From contig NZ_BCSH01000011.1 in assembly GCF_001570765.1 (NCBI RefSeq), forward strand, positions 1-64,000: 64,000 nt of DNA, written 5' to 3'. Each line of letters starts with the position of its first letter. The first letter of the stretch is position 1. The stretch comes from Nocardiopsis listeri NBRC 13360. GTDB lineage: Bacteria; Actinomycetota; Actinomycetes; Streptosporangiales; Streptosporangiaceae. A program made the position numbers and the translations under genes. Of this stretch, positions 15,219 to 17,763 are shown piece after piece. A model generated the notes under the pieces. It was not told where the DNA came from, did no database searches, and saw nothing but the letters and a program-made list of their open reading frames with translations.

Positions 15219-15266
15219 CACATTACCATTACTCGCACATACCCATAAGTAACCCTCGGTAATGTG
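15219..15266 (+). promoter_or_regulatory. AT-rich leader with an inverted repeat covering the start codon of the split gene
   Basis: CACATTACC (15219-15227) is the exact reverse complement of GGTAATGTG (15258-15266). The second copy contains the GTG start codon of the split nuclease-like gene. An inner TTACT/AGTAA pair extends the hairpin. The surrounding 80 bases are much more AT-rich than the rest of the window, and there is no Shine-Dalgarno sequence. A fold that hides the start codon, or a repressor site, are both possible. Confidence 0.45.
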
Positions 15267-15875
15267 TCTCCCGTGGCAGTTTCCCCCGAACACCAGATAT
15301 ACGCGGAGTTGTTCTCCGACGCCCCGGATATGGCGGTGGCGTTCCTACGAGACCTTGGAGTGGAGGTACCGAAGTACGACCGCAGCGAACTGACCTCCTG
15401 CGACCTCGGGCACGTCGATCCGGTCGAACGACGCTCCGACGTGGCCATCATGCTGCGCGACAAGGTCGGCGAAGACCCGCTGGCAAGGCTGATGGGCGTC
15501 GTAGTGGAGGTCCAGCGCGACACCAGCGAGCGCAAACGCTTCACTTGGCCCGAATACCTCTGCGCATTGCGTTCCAAGAACGAGTGCCCGGTGACCTTGT
15601 TGGTCATCTGTCCGCGGCAACACGTGGCCGACTGGTACGACGAGCCCATTCCACTGGGACATCCGGGTTTCGCCCTCAAACCCGTTGTCTTAGGACCCGA
15701 TCGCATTCCGGCGATCACCGACCCGGCAAAGGTCGGACGCTTCCCGACTCTGGGTGTTCTGTCCGCTGCGGCACATGGGCCGGCCGACCCTGACGTGATC
15801 CGGGCTCTGCACCTGCTCACCGACAGCAGCTGCCAGAGGGCTCTGGAGGAGCTGGTAAAGGGATCCCGGTCCTGA
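15264..15875 (+). pseudogene. PD-(D/E)XK (Rpn-like) family gene, 5' part, interrupted by the IscB element
   Basis: The first 199 codons of an actinobacterial family of about 250-290 residues that resembles the PD-(D/E)XK / Rpn recombination-promoting nucleases. The likely nuclease core is visible: an aspartate in RRSDVAIML (near residue 72), then VVVEVQRD (E-x-Q), then RKRFTWPEYLCALRSKNECP and VTLLVICPR. The host frame runs to AAG at 15860. The last codons before the TGA (GSRS) come from the inserted element. The usual C-terminal part (YEYTSAWTESLKAEGEAKG) is found after the element at 17527, so one gene has been cut in two. Joining 15860 to 17527 keeps the frame. Whether the truncated protein is made or functional is unknown. 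Confidence 0.8.
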
Positions 15876-16192
15876 AGGACCGGGCTTTCAGCCCTGGTGG
15901 CTGAGGGCCGCCTTTACCAGCACCAGCCATCACCCACGAGGAGGTGACCTTGATGGCTACGTTCCGTACAGGACAGCAGACCCACCCACCTGTGCTTCCT
16001 CAGCAGGTGGCTCTGGAATCGGAGTCGGTAGACACGCCCCGGATCGGGCACGAAACGAGGCTTCGGCACCACCCCACGGTGGTACCCGGTACGGACCATG
16101 TGCGAGGGGAGACCGGTACCGCATCACCTGATGGTTCCGGCGTCACCACCCAGCCCCTGGCTGGGGAGAAGCCGCGTGAGCGGCACCCATCA
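15861..16192 (+). ncRNA. Presumed omega RNA of the IscB element
   Basis: IscB omega RNAs are encoded just upstream of iscB with the guide at the 5' end (established for the OMEGA systems). This segment is packed with hairpins: 15865-15884 (CCCGGTCC-TGAA-GGACCGGG), 15888-15904 (TCAGCC/GGCTGA), 15986-16010 (CCACCTG/CAGGTGG), a CCACC/GGTGG stem near 16070, 16081-16120 (GGTACCCGGT/ACCGGTACC), CCAGCC/GGCTGG near 16150-16166, and 16171-16184 (GCCGC-GTGA-GCGGC). Such density is not expected of a plain coding region. The guide would be the roughly 16 bases before it (15845-15860). Exact ends and processing cannot be seen from sequence. Confidence 0.65.
15865..15884. repeat. Left-end hairpin of the IscB element
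   Basis: Perfect 8-bp stem CCCGGTCC/GGACCGGG with a TGAA loop. Its right half shares 14 bases with the right-end hairpin at 17493-17506, which suggests recognition by the same transposase. Confidence 0.75.
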
Positions 16193-17497
16193 GTGTTCGT
16201 CCTCGACCAGCACCACACACCACTGCAACCTTGTCACCCCGCCCGAGCCCGCCAGCTCTTGGCCAAAGGACGGGCCGTGGTGGCCCGGCACACCCCCTTC
16301 ACCATCCGCCTCAAGGACCGCAGCATCGCCGAGTCCGAGGTCGATGGTGTTCAGGTCGGTATCGACCCGGGCAGCAAGCACACCGGCTTCGCGGTCTTCA
16401 CCCACCAGGCCGGAGAGCGTCGTGGCCGATACGCGATTCAACTGGACCATCGTGGCGGGCGGATCCGGAAGAAGATGGGCCAACGCTCCGCTTACCGGCG
16501 GCGTCGCCGGGCGGCGAACCTGCGTCACCGTGCTCCCCGGTTTTCCAACCGCACCCGCCCCCCAGGGTGGTTGTCCCCGTCCTTGAGGCATCGGGTGGAG
16601 ACCACCACCGCCTGGGTGGACCGGCTCACCCGGTGGGCACCGGTCACGGCGGTGCACGTGGAGCGGGTGGCCTTCGACACCCACTCCCTGTCCGCAGGAC
16701 GGCCATTGGAAGGGGTGGAGTACCAACAGGGCACCCTGGCCGGGTACGAGGTTCGCGAGTACCTGCTGGCCAAGTTCGACCGCACCTGTGCCTACTGCGG
16801 GGCGACAGACACACCGCTCAACCTGGACCACGTCCACCCGCGCTCCCGGGGTGGGTCCGATCGGGTATCGAACCTGGTGTTGGCGTGCGTGGCCTGCAAC
16901 CAGGCCAAGAACGATCGGCCCGTCGAAGAGTTCGTCACCGATCCGAAAACCCTGGCGCGGGTCCTGGCCCGTGCCAAGGCCCCGTTGCGGGACGCGGCGG
17001 CGGTGCAGTCCACCCGCTGGGCGCTCTGGCGCTCCCTGAACGAACGGTTGCCCACCCGGGTGGGTTCGGGGGGTCGCACCAAGTGGAACCGGACCCGTAA
17101 CCGGTTGCCCAAGTCCCACACCCTGGACGCCTTGGCCGTGGGCGAGGCCGAGACCATCACCCAGACCACCGACCGGGTACTGGTCGCCGCATGCGCGGGG
17201 CGGGGCTCCTACTCCCGTACCCGGCCCGACAAGCACGGGTTCCCGCGCCTGCGCCTGCCTCGCACCAAGGGGTTTTTCGGGTTCGCCACCGGTGACCTGG
17301 TGCGGGCCGTGGTACCCCAGGGCAAAAAGGCCGGGGTCCATACCGGCCGGGTCGCGGTCCGCGCCTCGGGCAGCTTCAACATCACCACCGCCCACGGCAC
17401 CGTCCAAGGAATCGGCTACAAGAACATGCGCCTGCTCCAACGAGCGGACGGCTACGGCTACACCTGGAAAGGAGAGGGCGTTTCCTCCCGCCCCTGA
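15953..17497 (+). CDS. iscB: IscB RNA-guided nuclease (RRXRR / RuvC / HNH)
   Basis: Cas9-ancestor nuclease of the OMEGA type, 514 residues from the ATG at 15953 (GAGGAGG 8 bases before). The PLMP-like domain starts at V81 (VFVLDQHHTPLQPCHPARAR). RuvC-I is GIDPGSKHTG with D138. The arginine-rich bridge helix (RRXRR region) is about residues 170-200, and RuvC-II is HVERVAFD with E237. The HNH domain (about 275-325) has zinc pairs C279/C282 and C312/C315, catalytic D292-H293, and N307. RuvC-III is SHTLDALAVG with H389 and D392. The C-terminal TAM-interacting region (about 415-505) contains GFFGFATGD and GRVAVRASGSFNI. All catalytic residues are intact. The first 80 residues have no IscB homology and overlie the presumed omega RNA, so the in-frame GTG at 16193 may be the true start. 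The stop lies inside the right-end hairpin. Confidence 0.93.
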   Translation: MATFRTGQQTHPPVLPQQVALESESVDTPRIGHETRLRHHPTVVPGTDHVRGETGTASPDGSGVTTQPLAGEKPRERHPSVFVLDQHHTPLQPCHPARARQLLAKGRAVVARHTPFTIRLKDRSIAESEVDGVQVGIDPGSKHTGFAVFTHQAGERRGRYAIQLDHRGGRIRKKMGQRSAYRRRRRAANLRHRAPRFSNRTRPPGWLSPSLRHRVETTTAWVDRLTRWAPVTAVHVERVAFDTHSLSAGRPLEGVEYQQGTLAGYEVREYLLAKFDRTCAYCGATDTPLNLDHVHPRSRGGSDRVSNLVLACVACNQAKNDRPVEEFVTDPKTLARVLARAKAPLRDAAAVQSTRWALWRSLNERLPTRVGSGGRTKWNRTRNRLPKSHTLDALAVGEAETITQTTDRVLVAACAGRGSYSRTRPDKHGFPRLRLPRTKGFFGFATGDLVRAVVPQGKKAGVHTGRVAVRASGSFNITTAHGTVQGIGYKNMRLLQRADGYGYTWKGEGVSSRP

Positions 17498-17506
17498 AGG
17501 ACCGGG
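17487..17506. repeat. Right-end hairpin of the IscB element
   Basis: CCCG...CGGG with an inner CC/GG forms an imperfect hairpin that includes the iscB stop codon. It shares CCTGAAGGACCGGG with the left end. The element probably ends 10-20 bases later, at or before the host ATG at 17527. Confidence 0.65.
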
Positions 17507-17526
17507 TTTCCACGCCCAACACAACG

Positions 17527-17763
17527 ATGATGACGGATACGTACGAATACACGAGCGCCTGGACCGAAAGTCTCAAGGCCGAGGGTGAGGCGAAGGGCGC
17601 GGCAAGGACACTCCTCCGTGTGCTGGAACGTGACGGGGTCGAGGTCACGGAGCAAGCACGCCAACGCATCCTCGGCTGCACCGACCCGAAGCGGATCGAA
17701 GCCTGGGCCGACAAGGTCTTCAACTCCACCATCACCCACGTCGACGAGCTCCTCGACGAGTGA
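17527..17763 (+). pseudogene. PD-(D/E)XK (Rpn-like) family gene, 3' part after the IscB element
   Basis: This 78-codon frame has the typical C-terminus of the split family: TDTYEYTSAWTESLKAEGEA, then a Gly/Glu/Lys repeat-like linker, then LLRVLERDGVEVTEQARQRI and GCTDPKRIEAWADKV. It begins MMTD directly at the presumed element border and has no Shine-Dalgarno sequence, so it is likely a detached piece rather than a gene. Compared with intact relatives, a stretch of perhaps 20-35 residues before YEYTS may be missing, so a small deletion may have come with the insertion. That comparison is from memory of the family, not an alignment. Confidence 0.75.

Follow-up and report, generated by a model that had tools for sequence, protein, structure and literature searches.

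What brings a complete nuclease gene into the middle of another gene, and might the nuclease still act on copies of that gene that lack it? This question is raised by the window, as we call the whole 64-kb stretch of Nocardiopsis genome G000 analysed here, in which a host gene is split by an iscB gene and its accompanying sequences. IscB, a relative of the Cas9 ancestor, is an RNA-guided DNA cutter. We read the insert, with a probability of about 0.85, as a non-autonomous IscB (OMEGA) element that lies in sense orientation, takes its RNA guide from the left flank, would cut the empty allele and could be restored there in a homing-like manner. An initial annotation, made from the window alone, had proposed a complete IscB element within a gene whose two flanks join in frame, and had suggested a recent, possibly active insertion.

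Empty and occupied alleles of the host gene

Joining position 15854 to position 17527 gave a single open frame. Uninterrupted copies of the host gene were found in more than a dozen genomes of the genus, most of them flanked by fadB and an MMPL transporter gene, and these syntenic copies bear out the claim of a split gene. The nearest relative as measured by fadB (96.7%), Nocardiopsis sp. JB363 (G061), has the same gene order and supplied the empty allele that the initial annotation had called for. It is exact to the base, reading GAGGAGCTG/ATGATGACGG (the slash marks the junction), with GCCAGAGGGCTCTGGAGGAGCTG followed directly by ATGATGACGGA, both identical to the window flanks. Therefore, the element at 15855-17526 arrived after the split from the G061 lineage. 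Its ends match those of sister elements (/GTAAAGGGATC ... CCCAACA..CG/ATGA), and its boundary is uncertain by 1 bp because a G stands at both edges. As in the IS200/IS605 group, the insertion is clean, beside a fixed tetranucleotide and without target-site duplication. The left boundary, first placed at about 15860, is 15855. The element also includes a full omegaRNA that had been left undescribed.

The last 16 to 20 nt or so of the left host part (15835-15854, AGAGGGCTCTGGAGGAGCTG) are the predicted guide of this omegaRNA. The window and G061 agree in all 23 nt to the left of the junction, so that the guide matches the G061 empty allele perfectly, adjoining ATGA. Among empty alleles, the match was 16/16 in G061, G020 and G002 and 15/16 in G014 and G018, and ATGATGA adjoined it in all of them; a guide of 16 nt is enough for IscB (PMC9640706). 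A search of the element's own genome for guide targets found no other intact one; the motif is gone from the occupied locus.

Judged from junctions and trees, the host-gene site has been struck more than once: a second IscB lineage inserted there independently, and so did a TnpB element. In a second species (G031), a different IscB shares the identical right junction, CAACACCG/ATGATGGCGG, and the left part of the host gene is deleted together with the start of that element's omegaRNA. In the IscB tree, the G031 copy grouped with a copy from G010 (support 100/99), outside the clade of the window element (97/98). One vertically inherited insertion common to the window and G031 was rejected (approximately unbiased, AU, test, p 0.0004). 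In N. kunsanensis (G008), a decayed TnpB element of 1.0 kb, recognised by its TNB domain, occupies this place to within 3 bp and points the other way. Two unrelated IscB elements (L066 and L068, in G016 and G007) were also found at the hisA/priA start site, and a single clade for these two was rejected (AU test, p 7e-6).

The host gene itself is poorly conserved. Larger deletions were present in G009 and G061 and frameshifts in G002 and G018, in addition to the loss of the left part in G031, and the window copy separately lacks 60 bp in frame, or 20 codons that relatives retain. This last loss, at window 15800-15830, apparently occurred between short direct repeats (GCTCTGCAC-like). The gene had been labelled a PD-(D/E)XK nuclease. 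A search of Pfam and NCBIfam with its left half returned no family, and intact homologues matched no Pfam family above cut-off and no PD-(D/E)XK profile. The predicted fold of an intact homologue (predicted local distance difference test score, pLDDT, 81) had best PDB matches that were largely PD-(D/E)XK nucleases, including MspJI, Cap4, AspBHI, EndoMS and Kpn2I, with a best E of 0.015 and none significant; D57 and E80-V-Q82 are invariant. The label is thus plausible by fold and lacks a profile family. The notion of a nuclease inserted in a nuclease gene carries little weight, because the weak fold matches are the sole suggestion of membership.

The nuclease, its omegaRNA and its start codon

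The iscB product matched NF040563 (guided_IscB) with 425 bits, versus a cut-off of 175. Pfam RRXRR and HNH domains were found, and the layout is that of IscB: PLMP, then a RuvC that is split by a bridge helix and an HNH domain. When numbering begins at the PLMP start (16193), the catalytic residues are D58, E157, D212/H213, H309 and D312, the same intact residues that the initial annotation had numbered D138, E237, D292/H293, H389 and D392 from the ATG at 15953. The alignment with characterised OMEGA nucleases that it had proposed showed every active-site residue kept and none lost: the RuvC (D, E, H, D) and HNH (H) positions line up with the solved TbaIscB, HfmIscB and OgeuIscB (D61/E193/H247/H340/D343 in OgeuIscB, PMC9640706). 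The C-terminal region is present and conserved among relatives; a putative target-adjacent-motif-interacting domain there lies outside the coverage of the profiles used. With a ratio of non-synonymous to synonymous substitution rates (dN/dS) of 0.14-0.19, the core is, on this measure, under purifying selection. Because of the exact empty allele in G061, the intact active-site residues and this selection, a recent, possibly functional insertion is the best reading, much as first suggested. A remnant of a second IscB, consisting of the C-terminal 45 amino acids and the right end, was noted elsewhere in the same genome (G000:C36:67581-67718, L002).

Directly upstream of the IscB core lies the cognate omegaRNA, of HEARO type. 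Across 29 relatives, both sides had changed in 28 of 59 pairs and 96.9% of cells pair. This strong covariation was reached by none of 500 shuffles, and slid partners dropped to 32-49%.

Overlap between RNA and coding sequence occurs in some IS605 elements. The start of iscB was analysed in 69 of 79 elements; the other ten, which were divergent, cut short by a contig edge or drawn from distant phyla, yielded no start motif with the pattern used. A Shine-Dalgarno sequence stood in the loop of one omegaRNA hairpin in all 69, and this hairpin, helix 5, had 100% of its cells paired. The start codon that follows was ATG in 38, TTG in 25, GTG in 6 and CTG in none, and its first base covaried with its partner (A-U 31, U-A 21, G-C 5, U-G 3, G-U 1). 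From this start to PLMP, the length was divisible by three in 68 of the 69 elements, over 19 different lengths, and in-frame stops numbered 0, whereas the two remaining frames held 52 and 106. Substitutions were even over the three codon positions of this extension (0.18, 0.22, 0.21), whereas the IscB core gave 0.18, 0.14 and 0.39. A kept frame together with absent codon-position bias argues that the frame is held for translation and the sequence is held as RNA. By comparative evidence, the iscB start thus lies within its omegaRNA. It is improbable that the true start is GTG 16193 and that high G+C has, by chance, left the frame open through the omegaRNA. The curated IscB profile does begin at the PLMP domain, and the even substitutions would suit a non-coding extension, but the multiples of three, the absence of stops, the embedded Shine-Dalgarno sequence and a first base that is A, U or G, never C, with pairing kept, all speak for the upstream start; moreover, no Shine-Dalgarno sequence is visible upstream of GTG 16193, which was dropped as the start after the frame test. 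In Methanohalobium, at the distant locus L117, an ordinary iscB start follows the end of the RNA.

Table 1. Coordinates of the element, its parts and the split host gene (positions in the window unless another locus is named)
Feature	Position	Strand	Basis
Whole IscB element, 1,672 bp, without target-site duplication	15855..17526	+	Empty-site comparison with G061 and other Nocardiopsis; ends common to sister elements
Predicted omegaRNA scaffold (HEARO, RF02033)	15855..16117	+	Rfam 66.6 bits, E 2.4e-12, model 1-211 complete; covariation
Predicted omegaRNA hairpin AGCCATC...GATGGCT; loop holds Shine-Dalgarno GAGGAGGTGA (15938-15947), stem holds iscB start ATG 15953-15955	15925..15958	+	Helix 5 of covariation model
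iscB coding sequence, 514 amino acids; homologous core (PLMP, RuvC, bridge helix, HNH, C-terminal region) from 16193	15953..17497	+	Profile matches, structure alignment, core dN/dS
In-frame N-terminal extension of iscB, 80 codons, also omegaRNA scaffold and linker	15953..16192	+	Length multiple of 3, stop-free frame
Right end of element, stopping directly 5' of ATGATG	17498..17526	+	Sister-element ends
N-terminal part of split host gene, 197 codons; open reading frame now ends at stop inside element, 15873-15875	15264..15854	+	Syntenic intact orthologues 70-85% identical
C-terminal part of split host gene; opens with ATGATG (target-adjacent motif ATGA); readable as own open reading frame of 78 amino acids	17527..17763	+	Intact orthologues
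Decayed TnpB element at host-gene site	L082 3564-4596 (G008, Nocardiopsis kunsanensis)	reverse orientation	TNB domain 73 bits

Sites of sister elements and the proposed route

Sister elements, as predicted from their ends, are typically found immediately ahead of a start codon (ruvA, dnaN, menD, era, pth and others), with ATGA or GTGA at the right edge. The right-end search required RTGA or RTGG, so that the count of the tetranucleotide is not independent evidence; the protein starts are. The right junction opened an open reading frame of at least 100 amino acids in 43 of the 50 elements with both ends found, against a background of 506 out of 1,446 RTGA sites in the same flanks. Ten downstream proteins, chosen as recognisable and not at random (MenD, RuvA, Pth, Era, HisA/PriA, YbeY, MazG, DnaN, ProA and IspE), all started at, or at most 25 residues from, the N-terminus of their family. 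The intragenic exceptions are the window element and one in an aldehyde dehydrogenase gene of N. metallicus (L104), both at Leu/Met-Met. At least five bases of a Shine-Dalgarno sequence stood directly before the start codon in 15 of 50 right ends (4% in shuffles), mostly outside Nocardiopsis, and could restore the displaced one of the host. Right ends finishing with GGAGG or GGGAGG a few bases before the host start codon were seen in L129, L131, L143, L144, L148, L149, L151, L052 and others.

These observations are consistent with the following route. The element would have entered a dispensable host gene in sense orientation, between a Leu and a Met codon and immediately 5' of ATGA, mobilised in the past and in trans by a Y1 transposase now absent. 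A guide at the 5' end would depend on external transcription, and sense insertion into a leader may provide it; here, the host-gene promoter would produce one RNA comprising the guide from the left flank, the omegaRNA and iscB. IscB, translated from the start inside the omegaRNA, would then bind that RNA and cut guide-matching DNA adjoining ATGA, in other words the empty allele. With the occupied copy as template, repair would bring the element back to the site or spread it there, as described for TnpB, whose cutting of empty sites amounts to retention and gene drive (PMC11870625).

The window element is of the known IscB/HEARO kind. Like the IS200/IS605-group IscB/OMEGA (HEARO) elements, it has a PLMP-RuvC-bridge helix-HNH protein, a 5' omegaRNA with a left-flank guide, ATGA/GTGA on the right and no target-site duplication, and these elements are seldom accompanied by TnpA (PMC9755519). 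In the clade of the window element, however, the iscB start lies about 100 nt into the omegaRNA, counted from the 5' end, so that most of the scaffold would also be translated. The nearest precedent found is IsrB (DtIsrB), in which an omegaRNA hairpin holding the Shine-Dalgarno sequence has been suggested to regulate expression (PMC9581776); that hairpin is 3' terminal and immediately upstream of the gene, whereas the one described here is internal and also holds the start codon. TnpB of IS605/IS607 performs the RNA-guided cutting of its own empty site (PMC11870625) that is predicted for the window IscB, but it has its guide at the 3' end and a RuvC domain only. As with homing endonuclease elements, the window element occupies the site predicted for its cutting and the empty allele carries the target; unlike them, recognition would be through a flank-derived RNA guide, and homing is our proposal. 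The embedded start and the start-codon sites set the clade apart from known IscB/HEARO elements as far as checked, in a comparison that did not cover the primary HEARO and IscB reports.

For this actinobacterial clade we suggest, tentatively and at slightly less than even odds, that the omegaRNA doubles as the 5' coding part of the iscB mRNA, its hairpin hiding the ribosome site and start, which would impose a choice between translation and guide with built-in feedback. The elements would settle directly before housekeeping starts and obtain their guide there from host transcription; outside Nocardiopsis, many would keep the host gene translated through a right-edge Shine-Dalgarno sequence.

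Weighing the readings

Several observations weigh against a mobile, homing-like element in the window. Its HEARO score of 66.6 bits is below the Rfam gathering score of 83, which a sister element exceeds with 84.2. The window and G031 IscBs are not sisters, so that the pair is not the product of one lineage homing between species. The genome holds a single intact copy, hence no sign of recent multiplication there. The element lacks a Y1 transposase (TnpA) of its own, by which IS200/IS605 members are also known, and since none was found in this genome either, current mobility is doubtful. The same search found none in G031, G010 and G016, which hold several IscBs each; a Y1 transposase of any kind occurred in 13 of 40 genomes of the genus. 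HEARO nucleases are seldom linked to TnpA (PMC9755519). When a cognate TnpA with matching ends was sought, only a weak right-end remnant was found, in G025: at L094 924-980, an IscB-like right end lies beside decayed IS605 pieces (Y1 TnpA/TnpB), directly 5' of ATGA.

The missing transposase would also suit a dead relic, in which IscB has ceased to cut or lacks expression and the element is a neutral scar in a gene already being lost. The decayed IscB remnant elsewhere in the genome agrees with this, as does the state of the host gene, with its further 60-bp deletion and its deleted, frameshifted or truncated forms in G009, G018, G002, G061 and G031. A relic would, however, hardly be expected to retain the full reading frame, all catalytic residues, a complete omegaRNA fold and a core dN/dS of 0.14-0.19, and we regard it as unlikely. 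Even less probable, and the least so of the alternatives considered here, is that IscB serves as a resident tool for defence or gene regulation and not as a selfish, homing-like element. Many sister elements lie directly before housekeeping start codons and could regulate those genes, and the nuclease core is conserved, but the elements are scattered among Nocardiopsis genomes at differing sites, so that the flanking guide differs for each, and the window guide matches the empty site itself.

The locus offers a natural experiment: an empty allele, a perfect guide match and independent re-hits of one site are all available, so that real sequences can be used to test whether OMEGA nucleases restore their own element to alleles that lack it. 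The iscB start inside its own guide RNA suggests a simple switch between translation and guide, and the persistence of such elements beside essential genes would be explained if they land ahead of start codons and bring a substitute ribosome site with them.
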